A stretch of 62,383 nt of DNA, taken from Globomyces pollinis-pini. Its lineage: Eukaryota > Chytridiomycota > Chytridiomycetes > Rhizophydiales > Globomycetaceae. Location: the NCBI GenBank assembly GCA_025399215.1, contig MU621174.1, positions 1 to 62,383 on the forward strand, read 5' to 3'. How positions within the stretch are numbered: the stretch's first letter is position 1; every line of letters starts with the position of its first letter. A program made the translations under genes and the position numbers. This document shows, piece by piece, positions 733 to 61,865 of the stretch. The notes under the pieces were generated by a model, which had not been told where the DNA came from, searched no databases, and worked only from the letters and a program-made list of their open reading frames with translations.

Positions 733-2836
733 TTATTCATGTAGCATTTTTGTCCAATTAAAAGGACTCCAAATTTTCAGAAACTTTCTAATTCGCTGTG
801 AATTCTCATTTGGTTCAACCAACTTTGGTTTTCTCCATTTACTTGTAGATAAATCCATTGGCCCAGCAATAACTTGCTTGAAAAGTTAGTAATATTAAAG
901 GCATACCTTTCCAAACCACGGTTGCCATTCATGGGGGTCTTCAATTATATGTCCTAACCCTTGATCAGGATCAAACCATATATGAAAATATGGCAAGTTT
1001 GGTACTAATGATTTTCGAAATCCACGTTCACGACTGGTTGGAATAAGTTTCTTGTGTTGTTGTGAAAATTCCCCTTCGGCATCCAGTAAGGCTTCCTGAT
1101 ATTAATATAAATTGAAGTACTTTAAAATATGCAGGTGCATCATCATATATGTCTCGTGGGACGGGGATACACTCAATGTACGTGTGATGATGCTTTTTCA
1201 ACTTTATCACTTGCTCCATGAACAATACTCCCATGTCTTGAGCATCAAACATCCTGATGACGCATTTTTTGAAATTCTATTGATTAGAGCTTGATAATGT
1301 ACCCTAATTTCATCCCAGGTGTCATCCTCAAGTTCAAGGGTGGTAATAGCATGTTGCATCGGAACAATCAAACAGTGGTAAGGTACCATATCAACTGTTT
1401 CTGGTAATGCTAGGTATGTTTTCGTTGCCACGGCTACCACTGATACCTTTGGTTTAGAACCTTCCTGGTAACAGAAATGACAATTTGCCAAGATATCTTC
1501 TACTCGCTTAAAATCTATCATGATTAGCAAACGAAATAGTACCGTTGATTGAATGCTGATTTTTGTGTTCTTTCCTTACAACTTTCTTTTTTGCAAAGTT
1601 ATCTGATCGATCATCCATATAATCCAGATTATCTCGAAAAGTGGAATCTTTAGCAATCTGATTAGCCATTTCTTTATCAAATTGGAAACTTTTATTGATT
1701 TTTTCTTGTCGAACCAGATCATCCAAACTTTGTTCATTCTCATCGAGGTAGGATATTCGGTTCCCAGCGCTATCATGTGTCTTTTGTTTTGTCAATTTGA
1801 TTCTTTTGTTGGATTCGTTTCCAGAGTTGGTATCGGATGGAACAACAATAATCTAATGTTTAGTAGGATATTCTTACTTGTGCGTTGGCAGCATCTGCTC
1901 GCTGTTTTTCATAGACATATTCTTCTTCTAATTCTTCAAGATTTGCAGCTTTCATCAGTTTAGCTTTAATCACTTTTGCATTTAACCTATTCAATTGGTC
2001 ATTTGTCATAACTGGTTCAGTAGGAGTTATCTTGATGACTTGAGGGGTTGTGAAATTCATAGTACCCATGGTATTGATTTTTTGCTCGGATTTATTTTCC
2101 GATCCTGCTCTGTTTATGGTTTCTGGTTTTTGAGAGTCTTTAGGGATGGTTTCCGGATCGTTTCTGGTCCTCCTATAGGTATCCTCCTTTCTACTATCCC
2201 GTTCTCTGTTCTGAGATTGATCATATCTATCTCGTCTATCATCTCGACTCCTTCGATAATTATCATCATTCCTAGATCGATCATCTGAAATGTTTCGATT
2301 CGTGTCCCGATCAGGAGCTCTAAAATTCGATTTTCGAAAACTAGGACGATAATTTCGTTTGGAATCTTCATCAGGAATACGATTATCATCTAAATATTTT
2401 CGTTCATCCAAAGCCAATTGAAAATCCTTCAAATTCTAATATATTAATAATACAACATATTTACCCCAAACCTCTCTACTGCGACTTGTTCAACAGGTAA
2501 TTGATCTTCTTTTGCAATCTCAAATACTCTTTTCAATTTCATCATTCTCCAACTTGAACCTTTATCACCAAATTCAAATTTCTTTGAATCTGTATTAACT
2601 GGTTTAATTGTTCGTTCGTCTACAATAGCTTTTCGTTTTGCTTCCTCTAATTCTCGATCAATGACTCGTTGTTTTTTATCCACTTTCTTTTCAGAGTTGA
2701 AGATATCTTGAATAATGTTTTTAGAATCACTCATCCATTCAGCTCTTGATTCTGGTTGTTTTTTGTTATCGGATATACTATCTTTTTCTATCCATTCATC
2801 TTCAGATTCTGATTCAACTTTTTTTGTTTTTTTCAT
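733..2836 (-). CDS. cwf19: Cwf19/CWF19L2 family pre-mRNA splicing protein
   Basis: Spliceosome-associated protein related to S. pombe Cwf19 and human CWF19L2, acting on late spliceosome and lariat complexes with the debranching machinery. Seven exons joined by six introns of 25-30 nt (for example 2436-2464, 1853-1877, 1515-1542, 1277-1302, 1096-1120, 877-906) give about 646 residues. The N-terminal half is charged, with an Arg/Asp-rich stretch. The C-terminal half has both CwfJ C-terminal domains: CHFCY and the histidines of VPYHCLIVPMQH and HHHTYIECIPVPRD in the first, then FRKSLVPNLPYFHIWF, GLGHIIEDPHEWQPWFGK and a closing SPFNWTKML in the second. All splice phases agree with the family alignment. 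The start is the first Met of a Lys-rich opening. Family assignment is secure; exact intron ends are my reading. Confidence 0.93.
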
Positions 2837-3219
2837 AGTAAAGTTCTAAGAACCTAAAGGAATGTTACACCTGGTTGTTTATGGGATAAATGGATCTGAA
2901 TCCAGAATCCAGAAAAAAATTAATGGCAACAAAGTATCACTTTTCTTTTCCTTACTCTTACAAACCAATTCAATCGCGTGGATTATTACTGAATAGATGA
3001 ACGATATTTGAGAAGTAATGTATGCTGAATACATTGGGTTGTTCTGATCATAAAGAGGATTACACTATCTTGTCACACCAAAACAAAAACAATCTTTTCA
3101 GGGTAATAGATTCGATTCGTATAGAAACTGATTGATTTAAAGACATTTCACGTAAAGAAAATGATGTAGTTGGCAAAGGCTATATTAAAAGCAAATGGTG
3201 AATTTTTATTGAATCAAAT
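2837..3219. other. intergenic between two minus-strand genes
   Basis: Nothing coding is visible. The stretch should hold the 5' flank of the Cwf19 gene and the 3' flank of the H-type lectin gene. It is AT-rich with no clear TATA box. Confidence 0.4.
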
Positions 3220-3729
3220 TCAAGAACTATGAACATCAGATGAGGTATCCAAACCAGAATCTTCACTAAACTCCACATCAAGAGTATACAAACTATCATC
3301 AGCAATATCACCTTCTCTAGCTTCCCAACCAATCACAATTTCAAAAGTTTGTGAATCCCACCAACTTTTACCAACAATTTCAAATCCATTTTTAGTGATA
3401 TTGACAGCTGATACATCAACTCGAGTATTTCTATCTTTATCAATATCCAATTTTTTTATCCAACAATTGACGATAGGTATTGATTTGAATGGATTAGTGA
3501 AATCAATTGATTTAGTTTTAGTTAATGTTGAACCAGAACAAAATATTTGATGAAATTGAATTTCACCAGATTCAATATGAGATAATAAATTGATTTTTGA
3601 GTTTAATTGTTGATTTTGTTTTTCTAATTCCAATACTTTTGATGAAAGTAAGGAAAGTTTTTCTAAAATCATATCCTTGAATAGTTGATCTGAAGTGAAT
3701 AAACTTGGACGGGAAGACACTCTTTTCAT
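3220..3729 (-). CDS. H-type lectin domain protein with N-terminal coiled coil
   Basis: Single-exon protein of 169 residues. Residues about 18-50 form a short heptad-like coiled coil. Residues about 50-135 match the H-type lectin fold known from discoidin I and snail agglutinin: a GEIQF strand, a PFKSIPIVNCWIKKLDID segment, an AVNITKNGFEI core and an EIVIGWEA closing strand. The family binds sugars such as GalNAc and often trimerises, which would suit the coiled coil. There is no signal peptide, so the protein is either intracellular or exported unconventionally. The acidic Ser-rich tail is not part of the fold. Sugar specificity cannot be read from the sequence. Confidence 0.75.
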   Translation of the reverse strand: MKRVSSRPSLFTSDQLFKDMILEKLSLLSSKVLELEKQNQQLNSKINLLSHIESGEIQFHQIFCSGSTLTKTKSIDFTNPFKSIPIVNCWIKKLDIDKDRNTRVDVSAVNITKNGFEIVGKSWWDSQTFEIVIGWEAREGDIADDSLYTLDVEFSEDSGLDTSSDVHSS

Positions 3730-5966: not shown

Positions 5967-7544
5967 ATGCCATTTGATTCAGAAAGACCAAAACTACCAT
6001 GGGTTTTACTTGCTCTGACGTGGGGTTATTTCACTGCTCCAAAGGACTCAGGAACAGTCATCATCAATTCAATCTTCAAACAACGAGGAGTCCCTTGGAT
6101 TCTACTATTCCTATCATGGACCTATTTCAATTACTCTAATGCTATCAAACAGGTTTACATTCTCTGTTTTTATTCAGTAGTTTTTTCGTCCCAGAAAAGT
6201 GATTCAGTATACTGCTAAGCTAAAACGTAAAGAAATTGCTCCAGTAACTCTTCCTGCTCAAATTCCAAATGTAAAACCACAAACAGCAGCTGAGGAAACT
6301 ATTGAGGTAGTAAAGGATAAAGCGGAAACACAAGAACTAGTCAAAGCATCATTAAAACCAGTCAATGAAATGACATTTACAGAGTTTCTTGATGATATAA
6401 ATGCGAAAGTGAAAACAATGACTCCACCAAATCATCGATTTAAATCTACTTTGCGAGCTATTGCTATCATGGATAAGGTATTGCCAATAAACGTATGGGC
6501 ACATCAACAGGAATCAAAAGGAATCAATATTTCGTTGTTAAATTTCCCTGGATTGGATTTAGGATTTGTCAGAGGAGATGGTTTGATTTCAGGAAATTGG
6601 ACTATTCAAGAAGTATTATCAGTCATCAACAATGCCCATTGCCGAAAGACTTGTAATATCTTATATTGATTCATGATGTAGGGGATGCAAGATTTGATGG
6701 AGCGGATACAATCGAATTTTTATCTTTTGCTGATGTTTTGGTCCATTCCGTACAGAAAGGGACATTTCCAGTTTCAGCTAGGGATATTGTCAGTTTTAAT
6801 TCGTTGACTGAATTATCGGATTCCTCATTGACTTTTGTAATTAGTTCGGTAACGGATCCAAAAGCACCAGAAGAAGGTGCGAACGGGAGAGTCCGAGCAG
6901 ATATCATGATTGCTGGCTGGAAATTAGAGCAAAAGGAAAATGGTGTTTATACAACTTATTTGGTTCATGTTGATCCTAAAGGATATATCCCAACCTGTAA
7001 TACACCCCCAAAAAACTAACGTTTCATAGCACTTATAAAAACGATTCAATTCCAAACACCTATGTGTATCAAAAACATAGGAACTTATTTATCGGAAACA
7101 GGGTCTGTTCCATTTGTACTCTTGGGTGGTAAATACCAACCCACCGAAGGCATTTCAATTAGTACACGAAATAGTACACCTTCCACTCTGCACCTCGAAT
7201 ATACTTTAGTCGGATCCGATAAAGAAAAATACTTTTATATAGCCCTTCCTGGCGTCAACTACAAGGGTGTCAAAGTTTCACTGACAGTCAATACTGGTGA
7301 TGCTGGTAACCTCGAGATTGTGGACACAAAAGATGTGGGACCTATTATTTCCAGCAATACAAAATGGGTTCTTAAAGTATCACACGCTGCCAACACCGCG
7401 GAACAAAAATTGGTATTAAAAGCTATTCCAGGACCAGAAGAAAAAGTGGAATTAAACGGCACTCTTTTGGAGCAGAAATTGGTGTTGAAACCTGACACTG
7501 TACCCGATGCGAAAGTGGATGTTGATGGCAGTCTTTTAAAATAA
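5967..7544 (+). CDS. START-domain lipid-transfer-like protein with N-terminal membrane hairpin (copy A)
   Basis: Four exons (5967-6152, 6208-6652, 6682-6996, 7030-7544) give about 486 residues. The N-terminus has two near-identical hydrophobic segments, PWVLLALTWGYF and PWILLFLSWTYF, likely a membrane hairpin. Residues about 125-345 form a START-type lipid-binding domain: TWDARFDGADTIEFLSFADV, LVHSVQKGTFPVSARDIVSF, RADIMIAGWKLEQ, YLVHVDPKG. The remaining ~140 residues look like a beta sandwich and end in a duplicated EQKLVLK...LNGTLL unit. START proteins bind lipids or sterols in a closed pocket; the ligand here is unknown. The first intron (55 nt) is the least certain join. The gene below (7716-8788) is a tandem paralogue with one intron at the same Trp codon. 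Confidence 0.8.
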
Positions 7545-7715
7545 ATCATTTTTTATTCGCGTAATTTGTGTCTATTTTAATGATTGTTTTCCGACTGGAC
7601 AACACATGATATTCGAACCCCTTTTTGAACACAAAGAAATCACATTTCATTTACAACACAAGTGGCGCCAATATATAAACTACAAAAGCAAATGAAATAG
7701 TTAGTAAAATTAATA
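7545..7715. promoter_or_regulatory. spacer with TATA box of START copy B
   Basis: Only 171 bases separate the tandem paralogues. A TATATAAAC element near 7672-7680 lies about 40 bases before the ATG at 7716, a good TATA-box position. Similar elements precede the small gene at 15257 and the trypsin gene at 56708. Confidence 0.45.
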
Positions 7716-8788
7716 ATGGATTTAGCGGAATTAGAACGAGTCATGAGTGAAGGTGCAGCAAACCTACCCCAACCAGAACATCGTATCAAAGACCATTTGA
7801 AAGGATTGGCGGGTTTTAATTTTGTATTCCCATTAACTCGCTGGAATCCACCATCCGTTAGTGATGGAGTGAAGGTGTCTTTCTTGGACGTAAAAGGAAT
7901 GGATATCCTTCCAGTACGTGGGGATGCTGTCATCCAAGGCGATTGGTCCATGAGTGAAATCCTGTCCATCATCAATAACATGGAACCACGAAAGAAATGT
8001 TTGATATTTACCTTGTTTTTAATACTGTAGGGGATGATCGTTTCGAAGGTGCAACTCAATTGGAATTATTGAATTTCAATGATATGCTTGTACATTCTGT
8101 TCAGAAAGGAGCATTTATGGTATCAGGAAGAGATTTCCTTACTGTCAACAGTATCCCAGAAATAACTGAAGAATCTTTGTTGGCGATGGCAGCATCTGTG
8201 AATGATTCAAAGGGGCCAGCGGCAAACACCAATGGAAAAGTTCGTGGTGAAATTATGTTTGCTGGATGGAAGGTTGCTCGAAAAGATGATGGATTACACG
8301 TCACTTATATTGTGAAATTTGATCCCAAGGGTAGTATTCCATCATCATTAGTGAAAATGGTACAAAGTCAAACTCCTATGTGTATCAAGACTGTTGAAAA
8401 GTGTCTGCAACAACATGGACCAACACCTCATGTTTTACTCTATCAATCAGTAAAGCCTACTGAAGGAATCTCGTTGACAGACAGGGAAGTTGATTTCAAC
8501 AAGTTGGTATTAGCTTACACAATCAAACCAGACGTTGAAGGTAAACTTCACATTGCATTACCAGCTGCCAAGTTCGCTGATGGAGCTAATGTGACCATGG
8601 AGGTTGAAGGTGGTAATATGGGTACAGTCCAAGTCATTGACAGAGCTACTCTTGGTGGTTTGACATCGACTCACACAAAGTGGATTATTGCTTTAAATCA
8701 TTCATCTTCCAGCACTACTCAGCATATCAAGGTCAACATCAAACCTGGAAAAGGAGGTAAGATCCAGTTGAATGGAAGCGATTTGTAA
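7716..8788 (+). CDS. START-domain lipid-transfer-like protein, soluble paralogue (copy B)
   Basis: Two exons (7716-7998 and 8031-8788) give about 346 residues. START signature residues are clear: WDDRFEGATQLELLNFNDM, LVHSVQKGAFMVSGRDFL, KVRGEIMFAGWKV, YIVKFDPKGSIPSSLV, QTPMCIKTVEKCL. A C-terminal beta-rich domain of about 140 residues ends GKGGKIQLNGSDL. Compared with copy A it lacks the N-terminal hydrophobic hairpin and starts directly at MDLAELERVM, so it should be soluble. Its single intron interrupts the same Trp codon as an intron of copy A, showing tandem duplication; copy A's last intron is absent here. Confidence 0.88.
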
Positions 8789-9888: not shown

Positions 9889-12800
9889 ATGAAGCTGTTG
9901 CAAAGTGCTGCCATCTTGGTTGCAAATGTCCTGGCCGCTTCCAACTCTACCACAGCCGGTATTTTCTGACCATTGTGCTAACATTTCCATAGAATTCCCT
10001 CATACATCAATTCATGCCGCTTCTACCACTGCAATTGCTCATCATTCAACTGGTATTCCATCATCCGTTATCGCGACACATACCGTGTCCAAAAATGCTA
10101 CTGTAGTGCCTACTGCAACACAATCCACTACTACTGCTACAGCCACTGTTACTCCAACCTCAAACAATACTGTTCCTGAAAATTGTGATTTTTGCAGTTA
10201 CAAGGATGGAACTGAATTCCGTCTCGTCCGACCTGTGATTGACACTAAAACAAACACAAACATCACCCAATTAGATGATTTTGTTCGATACATGGGACCT
10301 TCGTGGAGAGGTCATCGTATCTGTTGCAAAGAAATTGAAATGAGTTTCAATATCACCAATTTTGCAGGTACTGTTTTCCCCAGTTTTAACTGTTAGGACA
10401 AAAACGACTTATGAAATTGGTACCAAGAACTACTATCCATCCTCTTTCAAGACGTAACTTTCAGAGACGTGATGTTAGTGTTCCTCAAAAGAAAGTATCA
10501 GCCAATGCTTTTATCAAAGAACGTCCTATATGTTTACCTTTGATCAGTTCCAATCCTGTTGCTAACCCGTATCACCCTTCCATTGCTGCTGCAGGATCTG
10601 AAGCTCGTAATGTTCTTGGATTTCCAGTCCCAGTCAAAGGGGATGCATTGGTCTGTACCCAACCTCCATGCAGTATCGCTGTAGCATTTACCGTCAGTTT
10701 CTCATCCACTCAATCGTACTCTGTGTCGGATGGAACTTCCATTATGCACTCTAATACTCTTGGACAAACAACCTCTGTAACGGATTCTTCCAGTGTATCT
10801 CAAAGTATCACCAAGGCTATGGAAGTATCGCATAGTATGGCTCGAACTACAGAAACTGGTGGGTCTCAGGAAGTCAGTGTTTCCGACACTTTGACCAAAA
10901 TGCATGAAGTGTCATCTTCTCAAACACACACTGAAGGCAGTGAAACAACCAATTCCGAAACCAACTCTTCTGAACAGTCGCTGTCTAAAACTGATGGAAC
11001 ATCAAGCTCATCTCAAAGTGGATGGGAGAATGGAAGTTCATCATCAAGATCCAGTCATGACGATTGGAATCAATCGAATGAAGCGGGAGGTTCTGCAACT
11101 GTTAGTGCCAATGGATTGTTTGTGTCTGGATCAGCTACTGTGGACTACCATCACACTTGGGGATCATCTGGTGGAACTGCCCGAGATGACACTACTACCA
11201 GTGGTCGTTCAGGCTCCAATACTAGTGAAAACAGTTCCAGTCAAACCTCCAACAGATCTACTTCTAAATCTCAAATGCGTCAACAAAGTCGAAGTAGTTC
11301 AGATGCATCTACTAGTGGTGTCAGTGATAGTATTTCAAATGCTTTTACTAAATCCAAAACCGACTCTTCACATTGGTCCAACTCTGCAACTGATACTGTT
11401 GGTAACAGTGTCACTGATACTTTTGGAAGCACCACTGAATACTCCAAGAGCAAGAGTTTATCTAGTGAACTATCCAAGACTGAACAACTAGCCAGAACTG
11501 TTGACAAAACCTCTTCTCAAACAACTGGTGAAGAAACAACTCTTCAAACAACAAAGACTTTCAATGCTAATGTTGCAGGGTCATATCAAGTTGTTTGTCT
11601 GTTTGAATTCCCATCTCGTCAAATTCCTTGGGCATGTATTGATGATAAAAATGTCCGATCAGTGATTTACACCGACTTTGCGTTAAAGTCAGTTGGACCA
11701 ATATCTTCAGATGAATGTCGACCTGCATTATTAACTACTGAACAAATTGACAATTATATGGTGATTGATGATCCTGGTTTCTCCAAAGCTGTTGATATTT
11801 CTGTTAGTGATATTGGAAACTCTATCCGTGACAGTCAACCTTACGTATTTGCCAACAAAGGTAGTTCCGCCATCAAGCCGGTTACTGTAGAAGCAACTAT
11901 TCTCAAAAGTTTAAATACTGATCCAGCGGGTGAATCCAACTATTTCTTGAAGATGAGTTACACTGGTAACATGTACATCACCAACAAGAAGGGTCAAGTA
12001 TTCTGGAAGACTGATACTGTGATCACTGGTGAATTCAATACCAATACTCGTTTGATTATCAATCAAGAAGGTCATATCCTTCTTCAAAAAGAAAATATGT
12101 TTATGAAGCAGCCTGTGCCAGCATTCCAACAAGTCACTTCTGACATTATTACTGGTGATGATGTTATTTCAAACTATACTACCATCTGGTCTAATGTGCC
12201 TAAAAATATGCGATTCACTATCGGATCTCGCCGAGCAGGGTACAGACTTGTTTTGGTAGAGAAGTTGATCAACTTCCAAAGTCAAGTGGATTTAGTACTT
12301 TATGATGGAGGTGGTTCCAAGGTGTGGTGTGCACGTAACATCATGTGTAAGAGTCCATTGGTCAACATTCTAAAACTCGATACTGCCGAATACAGTGGTT
12401 TCCGTTTCCCACTTGACTATGTCTGGCCAACAGATACTCGAACTGACTTGAAACAAACGATTTTTGATAAAAGCGATCCTCACAATTTCTTTGATACTAC
12501 AAAGTACACATTGGCAGCTGGTAACACTTTTGATTCTGAAGCTTCCCGTTGTGGACCGATCCTTCAAGCAAATCAATACATTCAATCCCCAAACAAGCGA
12601 TTCTCATTGATCTTGGAAGAGACTGGTAATTTGATTTTCAAGGATGGTATTCGTACCATGTGGGAAACCTACACTTCTAAATTAAGCTATTTGGTTGCAC
12701 CTGTATCTTTACATTTATCTATCGAAGGATTCATGTATATCAAGGACGCTCATAATGCTTTGATATATTCCACCTTTTCTGGCATCCCATTGGGTAAATC

Positions 12801-19631: not shown

Positions 19632-20039
19632 CTTTATAGATATTAAAACATTTATTTAATACTATGTAAACTTTAAGAGTTCAAGTAAAATTGTAAAGTG
19701 TTTTGTGATCAACTAAAATTGTAAACTGCTTTGTGGCATATAAGATTGAATTGAGTAACATTTTAAACTAACTGAATTGTGAATTGCGTTTAAGGACTAT
19801 TTTAACGTTGAGCTTAATATTTAGTATTGGCAATTTTAAGATAAAGCGTGTTAAATGGCGAACCAGGTGAGAAACCTAAACAATTTGGTTAGATATCCAA
19901 CCAAATTTCCCCCAAAATTCGCATAATGAAGCTCTCCAATTCTCCCATTTATTGAATGTTGGCGTACTGATGACAGCTGATTGATGAGTCACCAAACCCT
20001 AATATTTAATGTAAAATTTTGACATAACATTCTTACCAA
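19632..20039. other. intergenic, nothing recognised
   Basis: About 400 AT-rich bases between the DUF4436 copy 2 stop and the next plus-strand start. It contains a loose direct repeat (GTAAAGTGTTTTGTG / GTAAACTGCTTTGTG near 19694-19735). No gene is visible. Confidence 0.4.
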
Positions 20040-23754: not shown

Positions 23755-23896
23755 ATCTTTCTACTATTTTAATATTTTTTTAAAAGTTTAATAAACAAAT
23801 ATTTAATTGTCATTGATTTTCGATCAATTAGTTAGGTTACATTATGATATGATAAAGATTAGTACAATAATAAGCGGCGATATATTTTTGATATAG

Positions 23897-24936
23897 TTAA
23901 GTATCAGTATGATGGATAACTAAAGTTAGATGAATCCAAATTTTACCTTCAAAAGGCATTCCCCAACATTTATAACCCAAAGACTTTGCTAAATAACATA
24001 ATCCTTCAGTTTCAATTCCATCATAACCTTCTGATAAGTCCCAATCTGTTCCAACAGCATGAAATGGAGGAAAGTTGATTCCTTTTCGAAATATTTCAGA
24101 TTTGACAAATAACATTGTTCCACCTACTGAATCTAATTCCACATATTCTTTTCCGAATTTCGAAAGTTCTGATACAAATAGAGTACCAACGGCATGGTAG
24201 GGTATAAAAGTTGATTTTCCCTGTAAAAGTTGTTGATATTCTAGTGCAGTTGGTTTGGTTCGTTGACCTTTCCAAGCATTTTGATCATAATCGATCTTTT
24301 CGTTACCAAGTACACATGCAGGAGTAATTATATCTAAAATGATTAGTAATCAAAATATTACCATGTCCAGATAAAGTCATTTTTTGACTTAGATAAACAG
24401 GAACTTCATAAATATCTGCATCTAACCATATGGTAACTTCTTCATCTTCTAAAGCAGTGTAAAGTAACATATTTCGTAATGTAGCCATATGTTTTCGTCG
24501 ATTTCTCTGAAATTCATCTAATTTACGATCTTCACGACTGATCTCACCATCACGACTAACATTTTCCAATATCAAAGTGATTTGATTAAATGGTAAATTA
24601 TGAAAATGATCTTCCAAATATTTCCAAATGACATCAAATTCACTGTTTGTTGACACCAATAGAGCTAAATTCTTTTGACCTTCATAAAGTTGATTGATTA
24701 ACAATAGAATTAAAGAATGGAAATTTCTACCATCCCCATACGATAGATGATCTTGAATCAGATCCAAATATAACAATTTCGGTAATTCTTTTTCTTTTGG
24801 ATTATTTACATTTGTTTTAAAGGATTTAAAAACTGCTTTCTTCATATTCCCAATTCTCTTTTTTGTTACCAATATTTCTTCAGATGATTTCAACTTTAAA
24901 GAACTTTCACATTCAAAGAAACGAGCAGCACTGAAT
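23897..24936 (-). CDS. Anp1/Mnn9-family (GT62) mannosyltransferase
   Basis: Golgi mannan-type alpha-mannosyltransferase family found in fungi. Core motifs are in order: TIWLDADIYEVP (metal-binding DxD), HDIITPACV, YDQNAWKGQRTKPT, VELDSVGGTMLFVKSEIFR, FPPFHAVGTDWDLSEGYDG, IETEGLCYLAKSLGYKCWGM, ending EVIHHTDT. Introns of 27-28 nt lie near 24337-24363 and 23924-23950. The 5' end is unresolved. A further open piece at 24976-25161 (FLNTNGKTTTFIEYHLNWN) may be an earlier exon, but no short intron joins it in phase. The usual N-terminal membrane anchor was not located with confidence. Confidence 0.85.
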
Positions 24937-29400: not shown

Positions 29401-31138
29401 CGTGATCCTATGTTATTGTGTGACTGGAGCAATAAATCCCCATACGAAACATCAGGTTTCTTCATCTCAACCAAGATTGACTGTTGTAGAGGAGGGTCAT
29501 CAATTAATTCTTTGACTTAAAAAGATTAGTCTTGCACATTTGTTACAGGGATATATGGGTGGATCGCCTTTTCCAGATTTTCCAACTTTTCGACCTATAT
29601 AAGCATATGTATCACTTTGATCATCGCTCATCTCGTTTAAATTAATCACATCGATTTTGTAATGTTGTAAAAAATTGATTGCCTCTGATTCATCATCAAA
29701 TCCCAAGAGTGAAACTATTTCAGGTAATCGGTGTCCACTTGTTGGTTCGTCATCTCTGTACCAGTAACTACGCTGCATGGCTCTGATAGCAGCTCTTCGA
29801 ATATCTTTGAAATGTAAATGTACACAACAGGCCATCAAGTAGGAGGTATTTGGCGATTTTAGTAGTCGAAATATTTTTGCAAATTGATTAATTGCTCCAT
29901 CTTCGCTTGGGATTTTATCATCTCCTTTTCTTGACATACTAAATCGTATTTTAAAAGCCAACTGTATTAAGGGATCAAAAAATAAACTTTCAGGAAGATC
30001 GCGCTCCAATTTGGCTCCCATTTCGGGATCCCAGGGTGATACTAATAGATTATATGCTTGAAATTCTGCTTCGTTTGGAGATTGTATATTTTGTCTCCGC
30101 ACTTCTTTATAAAACTCTGTTAAACTTTGTAATGCTGTATAAAGTTGAAATTAATAAAAAATATGGATACTTTTTTCCAGTTGCTCTACTTCAAGTCTGA
30201 TTTCATATCCTGTAGTTCCACATAATGCATTTGTACACATTATATGATATCTCGCTATAGGTTCGTGAATTTCTATTGCTTCAACTCCTCTATTATTTTG
30301 TAAAATGCAATCATTTCTGATTGCCCGTGTTCTAACAAGTTAGCTCAATAACTTTGATTACCTATCCCAAATGAACGCATTAGTTTCTTCCAATCCATAT
30401 GTCGATATCAAGTCATAGAATAAATATTTCAATGTCCTCTATGGTCAACAAAACAAAGCTACCTTTAGAACTAAAGGAGGGCGAACATCGCTTGGTAAAG
30501 GAGGAGGATCTCCTGCTCCGGAACGTTTATAACGCTTTACAGCTTTTTGGTGATCTACTCGAGGAGCATCCAACTTATTGTCTCTTGGTAGCTAAATTCA
30601 AGGTTAAAAGAGTATACCATTTCAAAAGGATCCAGCGTGTTTGAAAATTCTCTGTCCTCCCGCTCAAACTCGGGACACATATCTTGACATTCTGCGATAA
30701 AAGTGATTGCATTTTCCAACGTATAAGTAACAGTTGGGTCTGCCATTTTTTTGGCAGCAATATACTTTGCTTCCAATATTGGCCTTTCTTTTTGCATCTA
30801 TTTGGATGATGAAATCGATACAAAAATTACTTCCAAGTACTTATTTTCTGCTAATTGAGTTGCAAACCTCTGTTGTCTTTCTTCCTTTGAAACTCCATCA
30901 TCTAGAGACTCCAATGCAAATAAAGAATCCGTCTGATCAACATTTCCTACCATATATTAGTAATATTGCTGAGATGAAATCAAAAGATAGTATAGCTGGA
31001 ATTGAATACGCTTTTCAAGGACCATCTTGACCAAAAGTACCTTATATTAATTTATCAAAGTATACCTAACCAATCAATGATTTTGAATAAACCTTTCTGT
31101 TTGATGGCTCTTCTATCTGAAGGATTTCCTCTCTTCAT
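26423..31138 (-). CDS. SAC3: SAC3/GANP mRNA export scaffold (TREX-2)
   Basis: About 15 exons joined through short introns give roughly 1,440 residues in one gene that at first looks like several. SAC3 is the scaffold of TREX-2 at the nuclear pore, linking transcription to mRNA export. Signature pieces: CQDMCPEFEREDREF, VDHQKAVKRYKRSGAGD, PLPSDVRPPLVLK, RTRAIRNDC, the PCI-like SPNEAEFQAYNLL region, then a Ser/Pro/Phe-rich repeat-poor linker at 28700-29400 and a long C-terminal part containing IPLLLVFWPSSS. The start at 31138 adds MKRGNPSDRRAIKQKGLF through two further introns; 30953 is a shorter alternative start. The C-terminal pieces (26423-27283) were linked only because every splice phase fits. 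Confidence 0.85.
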
Positions 31139-31450: not shown

Positions 31451-32479
31451 TTAAAGATCGATTTTGGAAGCAATTGTCTTTTCTGTCCAATCCCACAACT
31501 TGACACTTAACTCTTCATCCAAAGCATTTGCGTGTAGAGATTCATTGTGTCGTTTGGCATGAGGAATAAAATATTCTCCAGTAATTCGTTCAGACGCAAT
31601 TTCTTCAGAAGTTGCACAATATAAAGTAGTGTAAGCACCTTGTTGAGGTGAAAGTGACACTAACCATGATCCAAAACCAACAATTGGGGTAAGTATTGGG
31701 GTAATCATGGACATGATACCATTACCATATGTTTGTACTGGACCATTGTTTATAAGTTCTGTATAGACTGCACCAGGATGTAAACAATTAACAAATACAT
31801 TTTGGTTGGCCAATTTCTTTGCCAAGTATTTTGTAAATAAAATATTTGCGAGTTTTGATTGACCATATCGTATCCAAGTATCCATGGCCTTCATTTTTTC
31901 AGGATCTTCCAATGCTTCGAAATCAATCCCACCTTTAGGATGCATAGTATGAGCATATGAAGATACATTGACGATTCTAGCACTAGTTTTGTTCAAAGTT
32001 GGTAAAAGTAACTTAGTAAATAACTAGTTGATTAGATAAAAGCAGATTACAAAATGGCCAACATGGTTTGTACCAATTTGAGTTTCAATACCATCCTTTG
32101 TGAGTGCGTATGGAGATGCCATGATACCTATCCATGTTAAAAACATCTACATACCAGCATTATTGATCAAGATATCAAGTGGGATTTTCTTTTCAATGAA
32201 GGTTGACGCAGCAGATTTTACATTATTCAAGTCTTGTAGATCCAATTGTAGAAAATGAACATCCTTTCCAGTTTCTACTTTAATTTTGTTGATGGCTTCT
32301 TGAGCTCTTTCTTTTGATCGAGAAGCCATGAAGACTTGACAGTTGTTTTTAGCAAAATTGAGGCAAGTTTCATAACCAATACCAGAGTTTCCACCCGTCA
32401 CAATTGCAGTTTTACCAGTCAAATCCGGGATTTCGTCAGGTGTGTATCCAGTAGAATAATAAGCAAAAGGTCCAAACAT
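31451..32479 (-). CDS. short-chain dehydrogenase/reductase (retinol dehydrogenase/WWOX type)
   Basis: NAD(P)-dependent oxidoreductase with a Rossmann fold. Three exons (introns near 32126-32153 and 32018-32044) give about 320 residues. Motifs: TGGNSGIG (cofactor loop), an LQLDLQD Asp that contacts adenine, NNAG, the IVNVSS catalytic Ser and YGQSKLANILF (YxxxK). The extended C-terminal region with HPGAVYTELI places it near the retinol dehydrogenase and WWOX oxidoreductase branch; substrate unknown. It begins with a short non-SDR N-terminus, MFGPFAYYSTGYTPDEIP. Confidence 0.92.
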
Positions 32480-40280: not shown

Positions 40281-41670
40281 ATGACTTCCACTAAACACAT
40301 CTTGGTTTTTCCTACTTACGGATACTTGAAAACTAAATCAGATACCAAATGGACGTTGAATATTAAAGGATGGGCATTCGATTCAATGGAAAACTCTAAG
40401 CGAAGAAAGTTCTTATCCTCCGTTACCAGACGCATCTTGTCTCCAATTCATGGGAGTTCACAAGAGAATAAAGAGAAGTTCTCAGGTATCACTTTTATCG
40501 TTAATCTGTTAGAACGTACTGCTCCTTTCATGTCCGCTCCATTGGTTAATCAAACGGTGCGGGTGTCTATAGTTGGCATTGCACAACCTCCTCTGCCATA
40601 CTCGGAAGATGATGATACGTTAGATGATGCCGAATTTTCGAAATTGAATCAAGACGATTTGAAAAATGGAAAGGGATATGTTACTAAAACCTTCACTACC
40701 AATGCATCTGGTTTATTTGAAGGTTCATTGGAGATTTCTTTAGACGAGGTTGCTAAATTACTTCCTCCAAAAGAGATTCGGACCAGATTGCGTGTTGTTT
40801 ATTTCCTACCAGAAGAGTTGGGTAATTACCATTTCTTTAATGTTAGATACAAACTATTTGGGTATCATCCCTTTGATTGAACCAGAGGGTATATCTGTGG
40901 TCAGTGATGTAGACGATACTATTAAAATATCGGTATCTATTTATCTTATTAATGAAACAGCAAGTATATGATGGTTTATTGAAGGCCGCCAAAAAAGTAT
41001 TCTTTGGTGACTTGGCTGACGTTCCTGGAATGGCTGATTCATATAATTTGCTCGTAACTGTTCTACCTTTAACCCAATAGTATGCTAAAGGTGCTTCGAT
41101 TCATTATGTCAGTGCTGGACCTTTCCAATTACTCCCTCTGGTTTCACACTTTATCAAGTCTTTCAATTTCCCTGAAGGTTTTAATCCAGAGTCTAACCAT
41201 TAGGAACTTTGATTTTACGAAACACTTCTGAAATCCCAGACTCCTCTGATTATAAAGTGGGTGTCATAACTCAATATTTCAAGGTAACCGCTTATGTTTA
41301 ACTTTCTAGGATTTCCCACATCGTAAATTCCTTCTCGTTGGTGATAGCGGTGAACGGGATATCGAAACTTATGAACGAGTCCGACTTCAATTCCCTGACC
41401 AGGTCACCAAAGTGTTTATCAGGTAATCGTAATATCTGATATCGTAGGGACGTGGAATGTGGTCAAGATACCGAACAGTTAAAAACGCGGGCTATCAATA
41501 AAGCTAATGGTATTGATGCAGCAGGCAGTAAATGGTTTGGTAAAGATAAAAAGGAAGAAGCAACACGAGATGCTAGTAGTGTTGTAGATTTGGGACAAAA
41601 GTGGGATTTATTTACGGATCCGACCGTTCTCATTTCTGATGAATTAGTGAAGAGTACTATGGGGATATAA
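40281..41670 (+). CDS. App1-like phosphatidate phosphatase (DUF2183)
   Basis: Seven exons with introns of 25-28 nt give 410 residues. App1 family enzymes dephosphorylate phosphatidate in yeast actin patches. The HAD-type catalytic motif is present as VVSDVDDTIK (DxDxT), with downstream ADVPGMADSYNLL, ASIHYVSAGPFQLLPL and the second HAD motif KFLLVGDSGERDIETYERV. The N-terminal half has the family's GWAFDS opening and a beta domain. All junctions are in phase. It is shorter than yeast App1 because it lacks the long C-terminal SH3-binding tail. Confidence 0.9.
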
Positions 41671-46030: not shown

Positions 46031-47378
46031 ATGTCAATGTTTGGATTCTCTGGTGGTAATTCAAAAGCTCTATGTGATCGAATGATTGCTGCTGAAGACC
46101 AAAAGTATTGTCTTATTGCTAATCTTGTAGATTTGAGGAAATGGAACAATTAAAACAACAGGTTTGAATCACTTGCTCATTAGATTATTACTCATCATTC
46201 TACAATTGACAGTCATTCTATTAGCGTACTCTTTCATACAATCATCACGTATCACATTCATATCATACCTCTCGATTTGTTTTTTACACATGAATCCAAA
46301 ATCACCAAACAGTCACTAATGAGTCATCATTATTAATCATTATGTAGGAGGCTAATGCTACCGTCACGTCCAATGCTCAGCTTAGTGGTCAACCTTCTAC
46401 CTCACGAGCAGTAATCTATACATTTATTCATTTAAAGGCATCCGGCACTCTATCAAATGCACAGATACAAAAGTCTGTCTCCGGTCAAGTTGCGGGTCAA
46501 CCAAATTTACCTATCCCAACGCCTATAGCCAATCAAATGCCTCAAGCAGTTAACCACCAATCCAGCCAGACAAATCTCCCAATCACTACCCAAGCAGTTA
46601 ACAATGTACCTGGCCATGCATTTGCACCAAACCAATCCATGGGCCAACCAGCTTACCAGCAAATGGGTCAACCAGGAATGAGTCAGCCAGTTTATCAACA
46701 TATGGGTCAGCCAGGGATGGGTCAACCAGCTTACCAACAAATCGGCCAGCCAGCAATGGGACAACAAGTTTATCAACAAATGGTTCAGCCAGGAATGGGC
46801 CAACCGGTCTATCAACAAATGGGTCAACCAGGAATGGGCCAACCAGTCTATCAACAAATGGGCCAGCCAGGGGTGGGTCAACCAGCTTACCAACAAATGG
46901 GTCAGCCAGGAATGGTCCAGCCAATGTATCAACAAATGGGACAGCCAGGAATGGTCCAGCCAATGTATCAGGCAATGGGTGCGGCCCCTGGAGGACAAGC
47001 TTATACTCAAATTCCACAGCAAATGATGGGGCAGGTTAACTATCAAGTAGCAGGTAGAACTACTTAACACATCCTAACTATTCAGGAGTGGGTATTCCAA
47101 ATCAAAGCGCTGCCGCTTACCAACCGCCAAATACTATCATTGACGATGGCAAACAATTTCCATCTGGTAATAGTTTAGCATTGTCTAAAACCAAATCGGA
47201 AGTAAAGAAATATGATGACGAAGAAGAAGAAGATGGTGGGTTTTTTGGTATTGGAAGCATGGGCAGCTCATTAAAACTTTCTCATGCATCACTTAAAAAA
47301 GAAGATTCTATCACAGGTCAATCGGCCGAAGACATGATCAAAGCTCGTGGGTTCGATTTGTCCAACCCACTTGCCTAG
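46031..47378 (+). CDS. Met/Gln/Pro/Tyr-rich tandem repeat protein
   Basis: Five exons (46031-46104, 46131-46161, 46348-46410, 46438-47053, 47086-47378) give 358 residues. The N-terminus is short and helical (GGNSKALCDRMIAAEDQK, FEEMEQLKQQEANATV). The middle carries about nine to eleven copies of a 12-residue unit of the form YQQMGQPGMGQP (46630-46980). The C-terminus is conserved-looking: an acidic run, GGFFGIGSMGSSLKLSHASL and AEDMIKARGFDLSNPLA. Such repeats are typical of prion-like or coat-adaptor linkers; the family is not recognised. One intron is 186 nt, unusually long here. Confidence 0.72.
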
Positions 47379-49323: not shown

Positions 49324-52300
49324 TTACCATTCAAAATCAAAACGATCTAAAATCAAATGTGCATCTCCTAAATCTTTTTGTACTTTCTTCCTCATATAAA
49401 ATATGGGACAATCTTGGGATGTACATAAAACTTCCTGGTGTAAAGATCCTTGACATCTCTGGCATTGAGTCCACAATTTTGAAAATTTCATTGATAATTG
49501 ATCATATTTAATAACATTCTTTGAATAAAGTTCTGGTAGTCTTGATGTACAGCTTTCACATACCGCCTCCGCTAAACATCAGATAAGTTTATATACTTGG
49601 ATTCCTTTTCAAAGGTGCTTTACATCCTAAACAGGTTGCAATTTTCACAGCAAACTTCATTAACCCACCAGTACTTCTAGCGGCTATTGACACTGTCCTG
49701 GTATGATTTCCTGCTACAAAATGTCAGTCGGATAAATGATTTTACATAATAGACTAGACGCTTTATCTCCCAACACAGGCTCAAAGATTCTCATCAAAGG
49801 CTTTGACAGTTGATTTTCAAGGTAGTACTTTGTATCAATCGGTAGATTATTTTCCAGTACGTAAATAGGATCTTCTGCTTTCTCATACGCAGCAGCATCT
49901 AAAAAAACGTCAATTCAACCAATTTAAACCTTTGGCCCCTTTTATGATAACATAGGATACACGATCACCAAGAGCAGGCGCAGAACCAGCGTCACGTTTT
50001 CTCATTCGATCCGCTAACTCACTATGTGCTTGTTTCCCAGCATATTCAGCTTTTCCTAGCGCCTTTGATATCACCAACTGAGATAAATCAACTTTGTTTT
50101 GCAACAAGTCGGAGATGATTCCTTTCACATAATCACAAGCTCCAGTTACATCTCTGTCAATCAATAATTTCCTTAAACTTGTTTCGATGACTGTGGAAAC
50201 CAATCGACAACTATCTCTTCGAACAGTCTAACGGTAAATACAAGAACGTAATTCACCTCAATCCCTTTTGCATCCATTTTGTCATGAATGGTTGGTCGTG
50301 TCCAATACAGACCAGCATAACGTTTTTTGTTTATCAGCAAATATGGATAGTACACTTTTTCGAATTCCAATTTAATCGGTCTTTGAAAGTCTTGTGTGAC
50401 AAAGTCGGCAGCTTCTTGACCCAGTTTCATTGCATCCGCAACACTATCAACACCGAATTTCACCATCACAGAATCAGTATCACCATAAATGACTTTGGCA
50501 TCATATTTATATCCATTTGCAATTGTAAAACGTTCCTCCGTCAGCTAAAAAGATCAATTTATGCTAGATTACTTGTTTTGTCCTTTCAATCATAACTCTT
50601 CCAAAAGAGGTAACACTTGACGAAATTGCCAATAGTGGCAGTTTTCCAATAGTAGCACCAGTAAACCCATAAACAGAATTAGCACTAATCTGATTATTAG
50701 TTCTAAAAACAAGGGCAAACCTTCAACGCCAATTGTCGCCCATCTAAAACAGCACGCTTAAATGGATCAGTTTCTTTTTTCAAATCTGCTTTAGCCTTTT
50801 TACGAGCAGTTAGTAAATCTTCCAGAATGGTTGGTAGTAAGCCTTTTCGTTTTGATTGTACCAAAAACAGATCTATAATAAAATAAAGGTATGTAAACCA
50901 TTGTTAGGAGTCACTTTGTAGTCAACATCTTGAACCAGTCCAAATCTAGCAGCATGCGCTTTATCTTGTAGCCAAGTAGAATAACAGAGATTATGAGCCA
51001 TCATAATAGATGGGTAAAGCGATGCGAAATCCAATGTAGCAATTGGTACTTCGTAGAAACCCTTTTCAGGCTCAATAACAGTGGCACCTTCATACTGTTC
51101 ATCTGTCCCCTCTATCTCCATTGCAGGAATTAACAAATCTTCTGTTAGTGCTTGCCGAAACAATTGGGACACTACTTTGATTTGTTGTCTAACAGTTGTT
51201 TAATTCCACTTACTTACCCTCTCGTTAATAGATAGTTGAAATTGACCCCAGTTACTCTGGCCATTTCAATGTAGTTAATAACACACATTAGTTTATCAAT
51301 CAGCCTTTGGGGCAAATAAGCATCCTTAAATTAAGCAAGCATACAGAATACCTTCAAGCAGTAAATAGCCAAACGTCGTCTAGTTTCATCATTACCGTTT
51401 TGTAAATCAGTAATAATCGAGTGATGGACATCCTCCTTCTGTTCGCCTACCCAATCAGTAAAAAAATAAAACCTAGAAAATGTGCAGAAACAGAGTTTAA
51501 AGTGTACGATCGAAGTTTATGATCACGTTGCATTATAGTCAACACATCCATCTGGATACGACCTTCAATATTCATGACTTTATTATTCCGTGTCCCAAAA
51601 GCCTTGGAAGAGAATTGTGAGTCTTTGGCTACCGTTCTACTAAGACCAATTCTACCCAAAAATGGAAATTTGTCTAACTTTAATGCTTTGGCCCGATCCA
51701 ACAAGTATGGGAAATCGAATCCATTAATATTGTATCCAATCTACTTATTAGGTTGAACAGTTTACAATTATATCTGGATCCGATTTTCGAATGAATTCAC
51801 TCCATTTTAAAAGTAAATCAGACTCTTTTTCGAAGCATAAAGTTTGAGTTCCAACAATATGTGAACATGTATTCAGAGTAAAGACATTCTGAATACAAGG
51901 CTTCGTTTCACCTAACAGTCAGTATTAATAATGTACCTTGAAGGGTAATAATATTGGCTATTTGAATAACGGGGTCAATGGTGGCCTACATATGTTAATA
52001 AAGAGCACAAACATCTGGAAAGACTCCTTTTCTTCCAGCGCATTCAATATCAAAGCTGAGAATTCGTAATGGTGCAATCTTTGACCACTCTCCATCTGGT
52101 TGATGGGCTGTTAGGTTTTCATAACTACAAATCAGGTTTTGCCAAATAAGTTTACGATATATCTACTTCAATTTGACAAGTCGATTCTTGATTGATTTCA
52201 CGGATGAAATACTTTGATGCAGCTAATTCAATCCAAGTAGCCCCTTGCATCTTGGAGTCAATCATATATCGCAAGGCCAAAGGAATATTGCTTTCAAATG

Positions 52301-53026
52301 TCTGAAAGCAACTAACATTTCCCAGTCCAGGAACATGAAATCCTTCTTTAAACACACGTTTACAAGTTGCTATAATTGATTGTAATCGAACTTTGATCTT
52401 TAAGAATAGAAATTTGCTTTCTCCTTGATAACCATATATACTGCTCTTGTTAGTCAATTCTACATCCAACACAGATTCACCACCAAAGGATTTTCCTTTT
52501 GGGATTCTACTAGATAGTACACTCTATAATACATTAGAAACTTGCAACTTACATTTAATGAAGCAATATATGGTCGAATATGTGCTTGATTAAATCCAGT
52601 TGGAGCTTGCACATATAGGTATGGATAAAATCCATGAACATGACACATTACACTGTTTCCACTCTATAAAATCATTAAAACAAATCATTACTTCCGTCAC
52701 TCCAAAGATTCTAATTAAACTTTGTTCTTTGACACCATAAGGGTTTGGAAATATAGCTGGTGATGATCCATAATAATCCTCAACATCAATCTGTTGGAAA
52801 ACTAACTGTAAGTCACAAATGCATTAACCTAATGGTAGTTTAGAGTCCAAGTGAATGGCTGGTCTTTCCCAAGATTCTTCCCCAAGAGTTACTAATCGTT
52901 ATTATCTATCTAATATCTAATACCTTGATCACTTGCATTATTCAGTCTTTCAAGTTCTTCCTCAAAAACTGATGGTTTAACCTTTTTCAAGGAATTCGTT
53001 GAATCTCCTGAACCTGTTCTTTTCAT
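49324..53026 (-). CDS. POL3: DNA polymerase delta catalytic subunit
   Basis: Replicative family-B polymerase for the lagging strand. The start at 53026 opens [20 protein letters not shown]. Many short introns divide the gene. Exonuclease motifs: [13 protein letters not shown] (Exo I), [20 protein letters not shown] (Exo II). Polymerase motifs: [20 protein letters not shown] (A), [18 protein letters not shown] (B), [14 protein letters not shown] (C), KKRYAGLYW. The C-terminus has the CysA zinc and CysB iron-sulphur cysteines, ending [20 protein letters not shown] and DRFDFEW. All expected motifs are intact. Exact exon borders in the middle were not all traced. Confidence 0.96.
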
Positions 53027-55668: not shown

Positions 55669-55901
55669 TAATTGTAATTAAATAATACATATCTACATAA
55701 TCTTGATTTTTTCGGTTTTCGTGAATTTCGAGTCTGCCCAATATTGAGAGTAAAGAATGCTGTATCACTTGTATTACTGTTAAAGGGAGTTAATTCAAAG
55801 TTTGACTATAAATTTTTTTGCCAGTGAGATCAGAGTTTCAGGTCTCACTTCACTTCAATCGGAAGTGGTCGGCGGTTCACACTGTCTAAGAAACTAAAAT
55901 T

Positions 55902-55973
55902 GCCCGTATAGCTCAGTGGTAGAGCGTCACTCTTGTAAAGTGAAGGTCTAGTGTTCAATCCACTATGGGGGCA
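55902..55973 (+). tRNA. tRNA-Thr (anticodon TGT)
   Basis: Cloverleaf reads cleanly: D arm AGCTCAGTGGTAGAGC, anticodon stem TCACT/AGTGA with loop CTTGTAA (TGT), T arm TAGTG-TTCAATC-CACTA, discriminator A. There is no intron and the CCA is not encoded. The acceptor stem has one G:G mismatch at the fifth pair plus a G:U, so it is either a slightly degenerate gene or one edited/tolerated. A poly-T terminator (ATTTTTT) follows within a few bases, as expected for RNA polymerase III. Confidence 0.9.
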
Positions 55974-56707
55974 TATTTTTTGTTTTTTCCCTTTTCAGAT
56001 TCGAATTATCGAATGTCCTGCAAATATAAACACATGAAAATCCATTTTATTACTTATAGTCAGTCCATCATGAGCGATCCTAAACTCCAACGTAATAATA
56101 TTAGGTATGCTATGGTGTTTCCTGTCATTAGGCAACAAAGCACACATCTATTTGTACGCTGAGTATAGTTTTGACCGCATGCCTTATCTTCTTACTAAAT
56201 GTTAAAGGTACTACTTCCCTTAGGTACATAGCCTTCAAAGAATATCTAAATCAAACGTTGCAATCACACGCCGAAAAGCAAAAGAGCAACACGTTGTGTC
56301 AATGCATGTTGGGCCAGGCATGTTTGCCATACATGTGGAGCAGAATTGGATTATTTGCACTTGTATGTAATAGAAAGACTCTAAGCTTAATAATTGTACT
56401 TTACAAATATTTCCACCTTTTTTAAAGCATAATTCTGTCCTAAAAACAAGGAACTATTTATGAATCTAGTGGATAAAAATTAAATCTAATGTCCATCACC
56501 TCAAACTCATGCTGTTACACAGTATTAGGTGTTTCTTTTGATCCATACGTTTAATAATTTAGATCAGAAAAAACGCGGGTCACCAATCATTTGCCATGCT
56601 AATCTTAAGGTCACGATAGCCATTAAAATCTACGCATTGCCATACATGTGTTTCCGAAAAGTATATAAACAGCGATATTGAAATGAAAAGATTATTCTAA
56701 AATACAA
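55974..56707 (+). promoter_or_regulatory. intergenic with TATA box of the trypsin gene
   Basis: A TATATAAAC element at about 56662-56670 sits roughly 40 bases before the trypsin ATG. Upstream, an ORF-like stretch at 56171-56425 and an alternative frame over 56228-56370 are open but contain no motif; a small unrecognised gene starting with MSDPKLQRNNI near 56070 is possible and unproven. Confidence 0.45.
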
Positions 56708-60032: not shown

Positions 60033-60150
60033 GATTTTTGATGAAGAGAAAAATTATTTTTTAGGTTGAAGCTTAAGAAGATAAACTCAGAAGCGGATTC
60101 GTAAGTACAACCAGTATATTCATTAGATAAGCATCGTAGTTATTGGGTAC

Positions 60151-61865
60151 TCATTTCCATTGAAAGAATCGACATTTACTTTCTTTGCCAATCCCAACAG
60201 CTCTCTGGCATTGAAAAAAGTATTTCCCTTTATTGGGACCTGGTTTGGAGACTTGAACCATTCGCGTAATTTCATCATGATAGCATTTCGGGTTGGGATT
60301 CGTCTTCATTAGCTTAGACCAAGCCTGAACAGCATCTTCTTGTTCAATAATCTTCTCCTTCGATTCAAGGGGTATTGATTCTATTGGGGCTACGAGGATA
60401 TCTTCAGCATCTAAATCGATTGGTCTTGCTATGTGTGACCCATCCAAGTCGTTTGATATAGAAGATATTGGTGGTTGTGGTTTAACCTAGGTATTAAGAT
60501 CAATTGATTGAAATCTACCTTTAAAAATGATTTCAAGGAGCGCTGTTTTTTAGTGATTTTTGCTTTGTCCTTGGCTATCCCAATAACATTAGAACGACTA
60601 CAACCATTCTTTGCGCTGATTACTTTAACATTTTGGTGGATGATTTCTATATCTAGCTCATTTGAATCTACATGAACGTTCTCTGGTTTGGATGGCTGCA
60701 AGGCTAATGAAGAGGAAATAGTACAATCATTTTGACCATCACACTGCTCCATCTCGGAATTTTCCAATTTAGATTTTCGAAAGAATTGATTCATTTTTGC
60801 TTGCTTTCCCAAGTAATTACCCCAATAGTAAGTACAACCTTTTGCAGGTTTCTTCAAATGGGATTCCATGCATGACAACAATGATATATTTGACAGCGGC
60901 AAATGATCATGTAATGTGAGAAAGATTGGACAATGATCGGATCCAAGGACATCGGGTAATATATCTGACACATCGATCCAATCCCTTAATGATTCCGAGA
61001 CCAGGATATAATCGATTCTCGTACCATAATTAACCGATCTAAATTCATCAACAACCGAGTAGAAAAATACCGAGCATTGAGTTTCGTATTCCAAACTGTG
61101 AATGCATTTGTTCTATTAGGAAAACTAAATCTAAAGGTATCAATCATCAAGCCATTAGGGTATAACCAATCATTTAACCATATTCGTGAATCTAAATCCT
61201 CAAATTTTGCCAATCCATTATCTTTCATGCTTTGTTCTGGATTACAATGATCAATTTCCTGATGAGTAACATTCAAATCGCCAACTACCATCACCCGTCT
61301 ACCAGCCCTTACAAACGAATCAATTCGTATTTGAACAGCTTTTGAAAATATCATTTTGAATTCATGCCTATCATCTGTTTCTCCTGAGTTTGGGTAATAA
61401 ATCTTTACATGTGAATGAAATGAACACTTACATTGAATAAAATAAAGTATTGATGATCCGTGATCAGTACCCGGCCTTCTGAATCCAACTGTTTCAATGT
61501 ATCTGCTGTATAGTGTTGATGTAAATCATCTAAATGCCCCAAATTGGTAGTGGAAAGTAATCCACTGAATCCCTGTTCAACCATTACTGGGGATATATTT
61601 GATTTTACAAAAGTAGCAACTCCAGCATATCCTTTAGTCTATCCGTTATCAATTAAAATCATACGGGATGTAATGAATAAAAAACATCGTAACCTGGCAC
61701 ATGGTTGAATTCTGTTGGTAATGATTTAATGGTTCGTTTAATTTCTTGAAAACAAATGATGTCACTATGGAATGAATCTAATAGTTCTGGAAACGTTTTC
61801 GTTGTCCAAGGATGATAATTCTTTAAGGAAGTGATCCCATTGACATTCCAACTTACAATTTTCAT
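60151..61865 (-). CDS. APN2: AP endonuclease 2 (APEX2/Apn2 type)
   Basis: Base-excision repair nuclease. The start at 61865 gives MKIVSWNVNGI. Catalytic motifs: FQEIKRT (Glu), VVGDLNVTH (Asp/Asn), RIDYILVSESL and the GSDHCPIFL Asp/His. One intron inside (near 61052-61086) joins NTKLNAR to SVNYGTRIDY. The C-terminus has a GRF zinc finger (CYHDEITRMVQVSKPGPN, GKYFFQCQRA, CRFFQWK) as in APE2. Two PCNA-binding boxes are visible, QAKMNQFF near 60785 and QRSLKSFL near 60540. It is APE2, not APE1, because of the GRF finger and PIP box. Confidence 0.93.

Follow-up and report, generated by a model that had tools for sequence, protein, structure and literature searches.

Evidence for genome-wide ultrashort spliceosomal introns in the chytrid fungus Globomyces pollinis-pini

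Introns of nucleomorphs and microsporidia measure about 18-25 nucleotides (nt) and upwards, and they lie in strongly reduced genomes with few genes. The chytrid fungus Globomyces pollinis-pini differs from these, as its genome has 18.5 Mb and its genes carry many introns. Here we describe ultrashort introns in Globomyces, starting from one stretch of 62,383 nt (contig MU621174.1, C85 in our numbering), which we call the window. Ultrashort-intron genomes are a kind already known from Paramecium. In the published account available in part, Paramecium introns form a single narrow peak near 25 nt, have GT-AG ends and are of the major type (PMC5014332), as in Globomyces. Paramecium is a ciliate, whereas Globomyces is a fungus with a mode of 28-29 nt and a weaker or unproven avoidance of intron lengths divisible by three (3n). 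Three Globomyces genes together have about 4.2 introns per kb, against 1.6-2.3 per gene given for Paramecium and Oxytricha in the accessible text (PMC5014332). Cryptococcus neoformans is likewise an intron-rich fungus with short introns, and it has a 20-40 nt size class (PMC11913375, in excerpt); however, its main range is 40-100 nt, whereas the whole Globomyces peak lies at 24-36 nt.

In the accessible parts of a study of 644 fungal genomes, C. neoformans serves as the short-intron case with a mean of 63 bp, Gonapodya is the densest at 4.5 introns per kb, and two Chytridiomycota appear in its table (PMC8476143). Another survey, covering more than 3000 genomes, excluded introns under 30 bp, according to its available text (PMC10639083). 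In Globomyces, where 318 introns of 22-38 nt were called, this cut-off would lose 205 of them, an annotation blind spot. A Batrachochytrium paper gives intron counts without lengths in its accessible portion (PMC5364385). Our literature search, outside which most subscription papers lay, turned up no chytrid described as having such introns. The facts are nevertheless partly public, as the deposited protein models of three Globomyces genes already contain these introns. The introns are among the shortest known, and their length is well below what human splicing needs. The lower size limit that a spliceosome sets for its introns is a matter of structure, and Globomyces offers a natural test case outside the ciliates.

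The Globomyces genome, for which one source seen in excerpt cites Amses et al. 2022 (PMC13391722), comprises 18,547,825 bases in 459 contigs. A first-pass annotation of the window had proposed about fifty GT..AG introns, mostly of 22-35 nt, as a genome-wide feature. Sequence evidence supports this reading of genome-wide ultrashort spliceosomal introns in a fungus, and its firmest part comes from deposited proteins. A hand-spliced POL3 (DNA polymerase delta) from the minus strand is 100% identical, along its entire length, to the deposited Globomyces protein P0001; the next best database matches are from Kappamyces and Boothiomyces, both chytrids. P0001 maps exactly to 53026-49324 (minus) through 18 introns of 25-32 nt (mean 28.2), a density of 5.6 per kb of coding sequence. 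The mapping allowed introns of 15-449 nt, required GT-AG ends and took the solution with the fewest introns. It places the gene and its introns, all on the minus strand, as follows.

49324..53026, minus strand, POL3 gene with 18 ultrashort introns
52892..52923, minus strand, POL3 intron, 32 nt
52802..52828, minus strand, POL3 intron, 27 nt, 3n, in-frame stop
52664..52691, minus strand, POL3 intron, 28 nt
52524..52552, minus strand, POL3 intron, 29 nt
52125..52155, minus strand, POL3 intron, 31 nt
51986..52012, minus strand, POL3 intron, 27 nt, 3n, in-frame stop
51912..51936, minus strand, POL3 intron, 25 nt
51741..51765, minus strand, POL3 intron, 25 nt
51447..51472, minus strand, POL3 intron, 26 nt
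51325..51351, minus strand, POL3 intron, 27 nt, 3n, in-frame stop, AAG acceptor
51189..51217, minus strand, POL3 intron, 29 nt
50873..50898, minus strand, POL3 intron, 26 nt
50690..50720, minus strand, POL3 intron, 31 nt
50545..50572, minus strand, POL3 intron, 28 nt
50228..50256, minus strand, POL3 intron, 29 nt, without in-frame stop
49899..49929, minus strand, POL3 intron, 31 nt
49714..49745, minus strand, POL3 intron, 32 nt
49572..49596, minus strand, POL3 intron, 25 nt

The part of POL3 that was read with 16 introns can be aligned with human Pol delta (6s1m) over residues 20-1000, at 1267 bits. Compared with 12 chytrid homologues, Globomyces POL3 has past residue 106 no stretch of at least 5 residues that is absent from more than three of them, so that it hides no further intron there as an insert. 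The deposited SAC3 (P0241, in the window) and SF1 (P0121, on contig C262) have six introns each, of 24-36 nt. All 30 introns of the three genes thus fall at 24-36 nt (30 in 7.15 kb). Those of SAC3 are listed here, together with one that the deposited model lacks.

30798..30830, minus strand, SAC3 intron, 33 nt, from P0241
30592..30617, minus strand, SAC3 intron, 26 nt, from P0241
30439..30462, minus strand, SAC3 intron, 24 nt, from P0241
30332..30361, minus strand, SAC3 intron, 30 nt, from P0241
30135..30170, minus strand, SAC3 intron, 36 nt, from P0241
29516..29546, minus strand, SAC3 intron, 31 nt, from P0241
28082..28115, minus strand, SAC3 intron, 34 nt, apparently missed in the deposited model; called by the gene finder, and the continued protein matches homologues

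The deposited SAC3 model reads into the 34-nt segment and then stops. The continued protein has its best homologue in Kappamyces P0248 (28.7% over 268 residues, E 1.7e-33), a match whose continued part also crosses a putative 292-nt intron called by the gene finder. The deposited model therefore seems to have been wrongly cut short by one missed 34-nt intron.

Removal of such segments restores conserved proteins in other genes as well. Splicing raises the Pfam scores above those of the best single exons tried, from 124.4 to 303.9 bits for SAC3_GANP, from 38.2 to 136.8 for adh_short, from 71.7 to 135.8 for Anp1, and from 65.6 to 138.1 for PIH1, whose model includes a putative 62-nt intron. DUF4436 scores 72.8 and 70.7 bits, in both cases for spliced models. 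The spliced gene-finder model of AP endonuclease 2 matches 6wcd along residues 1-329. The first-pass claim that plain open reading frames break up genes is borne out by SAC3 and the three other families that gain score. The gene finder's calls in three of the genes are as follows.

32128..32154, minus strand, short-chain dehydrogenase intron, 27 nt, contributing to the adh_short gain
32024..32050, minus strand, short-chain dehydrogenase intron, 27 nt, contributing to the adh_short gain
24334..24361, minus strand, Anp1 gene intron, 28 nt, with the Anp1 gain
40933..40960, plus strand, APP1-type gene intron, 28 nt, junction inside the APP1_cat match (135.3 bits)
41054..41080, plus strand, APP1-type gene intron, 27 nt, APP1_cat match
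41178..41203, plus strand, APP1-type gene intron, 26 nt, APP1_cat match
41284..41309, plus strand, APP1-type gene intron, 26 nt, APP1_cat match
41423..41447, plus strand, APP1-type gene intron, 25 nt, at the edge of the APP1_cat match

The length distribution was obtained with a gene finder run on 262,383 bases, namely the window plus 20 pieces, each of 10 kb, taken from other contigs. Twenty introns recognized by eye in POL3 and SAC3 served as seeds for its site models, and a flat prior was applied to intron lengths of 14-400 nt. As a control, eight other dinucleotide pairs were scored with the same models. The finder recovers 25 of the 30 introns of the deposited proteins (13 of 18 in POL3, six of six in both SAC3 and SF1), an optimistic recall, as 16 of its 20 seeds are among those recovered. 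It also merges neighbouring genes and makes wrong long calls, such as those of 319 and 343 nt in POL3; the Cwf19 gene model contains probably erroneous calls of 73 and 207 nt. Positions 733 and 61865, which bound the extent given in the first-pass annotation, are the outer ends of the first and the last gene model in the window.

The 490 introns called show a single sharp peak at 24-36 nt with a mode of 28-29 nt, so that the distribution as a whole lies below about 45 nt, as in Paramecium. In the bins of 22-37 nt there are 316 GT..AG calls, far beyond chance, against 34 for GA..AC, 31 for CT..AC, 43 for TG..GA, 32 for AT..AC, 50 for GT..AC, 42 for CT..AG, 39 for TC..CA and 14 for GC..AG. At greater lengths the relation is reversed, with 24 GT..AG calls against 39-72 for decoys at 38-61 nt and 140 against 218-313 at 62-400 nt, although the true introns are unavailable to the decoy runs, whose long calls may be overstated. 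Beyond 38 nt GT..AG calls do not outnumber those of the decoys, and no longer class shows; rare longer introns are possible. AT..AC, taken as a U12-type length class, has no peak and stays at decoy level, a test confined to AT..AC ends, with no search for GT-AG minor introns or U12 snRNA.

The 20 stretches from other contigs feed the same peak as the window, and the SF1 gene on C262 has six introns of 25-31 nt, both of which argue for the genome-wide scope. Extrapolated from 1.4% of the genome, with about 36 false calls and the recall allowed for, the total would be about 20,000-25,000 ultrashort introns. The window itself holds 75 called introns of 22-38 nt, more than the fifty first proposed, and 110 of all lengths, the longer ones being mostly at decoy level. 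The earlier range of 22-35 nt is corrected to 24-36 nt.

A count of motif pairs (GTA..TTAAY..YAG) made without gene models peaks at 26-29 nt, with 119 pairs against about 40 per bin at 38-50 nt. Reversed sequence gives 83 at 26-29 nt and stays level at 83-114 for all bins from 22 nt upwards, above the forward count in most of them, so the count is informative only through the shape of its forward curve. A finder that used dinucleotides alone with a weak coding model gave a faint peak, with 24 GT..AG calls in the 22-36 nt bins against 1-10 for eleven decoys; GTA..TAG and GTA..CAG, which are themselves part of GT..AG, gave 17 and 1. A strict search for GTANGT donors with CTAAY gave no signal within the window; the real donor is weaker than GTANGT.

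The peak could in principle be an artefact of gene finding or of patched reading frames. Unconstrained self-training of the gene finder did invent introns; that run went away to 2522 of them and was discarded. The decoy control, the exact mapping of three deposited proteins and the alignments to solved structures all speak against an artefact, which is contradicted outright for the 30 introns that the deposited proteins require and can scarcely be credited at all.

Among 316 introns of 22-38 nt, donor position +3 is A in 90%, +4 is A in 51% or T in 38%, and the last exon base is G in 53%. Acceptors are TAG in 82%, CAG in 10% and AAG in 9%; the TAG/CAG rule first proposed holds for most introns and misses the AAG class. 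Median values are 29 nt for the length, 18 nt for the stretch that precedes the best branch A and 9 nt for the stretch that follows it. The fitted motif puts the branch 8-33 nt from the donor. The branch site is loose: 221 of 317 introns contain YTRAY, where shuffled intron bodies lead one to expect 113, and this motif can pair with the GUAGUA of U2, which is present in the genome. CTAAY is found in 51 of 317, and 46 have CTAAC or CTAAT 5-15 nt before the acceptor, which makes the branch rule of the first-pass annotation too strict.

These signals also bear on whether the segments are removed at another level, by DNA elimination like that of ciliate internal eliminated sequences (IESs) or by translational bypassing. 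The shortest ciliate IESs do overlap the Globomyces segments in length. However, GT..AG is enriched over eight decoys, TAG acceptors and YTRAY sites are enriched, and the genome encodes canonical U2 and SF1, all of which make removal at another level extremely improbable. The segments are almost certainly real spliceosomal introns, judging from the sequence.

Seven of the 30 deposited-protein introns are 3n, all seven with an in-frame stop, and 14 of the 23 others contain a stop. Among called introns under 45 nt, 81 of 332 are 3n. This raw deficit alone does not indicate selection, since 3n introns with a stop occur as often as expected (52 observed, 45 expected; gene-finder set, score at least 8) and stop-free ones escape the gene finder. 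When those hidden in called exons are included, stop-free 3n introns reach about 0.28-0.55 of expectation with the null scaled by two baselines, and about 0-0.36 with the unscaled null. A first version of this synonymous-codon null was biased; its replacement keeps the first base of the next codon and over-predicts at most lengths. The shortfall is a tentative sign that stop-free 3n introns are to some degree avoided. For ciliates, introns of the 3n class are described as rarer and as having in-frame stops (PMC5014332, in the part accessible). Within called exons we also noted 22 strong intron-like stop-free 3n segments of 24-36 nt (score at least 8), for example at 40486-40512 (plus). Some of these may be real introns read as coding sequence.

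Chytrid POL3 proteins give a hint of where the introns come from. Those of Rhizophlyctis (P0005) and Entophlyctis (P0015) have inserts of 24 residues that lie 0.3 and 1 residue away from Globomyces junctions; that of Boothiomyces (P0003) lacks 13 residues starting 1 residue from another junction. Three of nine core indels thus lie at most 2 residues from a Globomyces junction, where about 0.07 would be expected per edge. These indels look like annotation slips at shared introns that are longer in Rhizophlyctis and Entophlyctis, and they lend weak support to the view that the ultrashort introns shrunk from older ones. The alternative that the introns are young, gained recently as short units with no shrinkage, has the narrow length peak in its favour. 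The inserts in two other chytrids, no more than one residue from Globomyces junctions, resemble the translation of a longer, unspliced intron at that position and count against a recent gain, which we regard as quite improbable.

The first-pass annotation had suggested looking for adaptation in U2 and SF1, and none is seen. U2 snRNA is present in the whole genome search (135.4 bits) and keeps the canonical GTAGTA box, and the SF1 gene is intact, with SF1-HH, KH and zinc-knuckle domains. Genes for SNRNP27 (PF08648, 49.7 bits) and for a PF05971 protein (128.8 bits) are also present; the latter is presumably METTL16, in a family that also covers a bacterial enzyme. With canonical U2 and SF1, the major spliceosome probably removes the ultrashort introns by intron definition. 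The joint reading we consider quite likely is that these are U2-type introns of 24-36 nt, which would be recognized by intron definition, excised from RNA by an ordinary major spliceosome in an arrangement tighter than the human B complex, and derived by shrinkage of older introns.

Several points weigh against this joint reading. In human extracts the donor and the branch site must lie about 50 nt apart, according to the accessible text of the study (PMC6692369). Donor position +5 is G in just 24% of the 316 introns, weak for standard U1/U6 pairing, and some best branch sites lie as near as 8 nt to the donor, so that single assignments by the fitted motif are unsure. Three pattern searches of the whole genome found no canonical U6 core, for which incomplete assembly is a possible reason; an intron-split U6 gene had also been suspected, and these searches were empty for it too. 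Two weak U6 covariance matches have no ACAGAGA box on the strand printed. Rfam found no U1 in the genome, where the control is silent and the assembly may be incomplete. Finally, six of the nine core POL3 indels lie away from junctions, and the evidence for shrinkage is thin.

An alternative is that the introns are real and the spliceosome is altered, for example with a B complex without RED or with a changed U6. The distance of about 18 nt from donor to branch, set against the roughly 50 nt needed in human extracts, favours an alteration (PMC6692369, as excerpted), as does the failure to find a canonical U6 core. RED_N and RED_C also have no candidates, while SF1, SNRNP27 and PF05971 genes are found in the same genome. 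However, U2 and SF1 are canonical, U6 may merely be unassembled, and the RED searches were equally silent in every control genome, so absence of RED is not demonstrated. We regard an altered spliceosome as distinctly unlikely, and prefer the ordinary major spliceosome in a tighter arrangement.

Such an arrangement would presumably have to differ from the human one. In the available part of the human work, a 21-nt span and two helices add up to about 52 nt, and Smu1 and RED assist when the donor-branch distance is short (PMC6692369). About 18 nt would be too short for both helices in full. A tentative proposal, on the unlikely side, is that a free-living fungus splices some twenty thousand introns, each near 28 nt in length, in which donor and branch A stand about 18 nt apart. 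This distance falls short of the roughly 31 nt over which the human B complex forms RNA helices on an intron, and splicing would perhaps do without RED, a factor on which human cells depend for short introns. If true, the B complex would have another geometry or skip one helix, and the minimum size of a spliceosomal intron would be directly testable in a fungus.

Other features of the window were noted as well. DM10 and PIH1 genes are present, consistent with a flagellated fungus. An intronless open frame of 1486 residues at 10390-14850 (plus) has a Ser/Thr-rich start and repeated Cys-containing and QxW-like segments. Two similar START-domain units stand in a row at 5967-8788 (plus; 61 and 48.5 bits); the gene finder joins them through a doubtful 195-nt intron, and they are possibly a tandem gene pair. 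The region 46348-47067 (plus) has low-complexity repeats of the MGQPxYQQ type, and several overlapping frames stay open there on both strands. A tRNA-Thr (TGT) at 55901-55974 (plus) is the sole Rfam or ARAGORN gene of the window.

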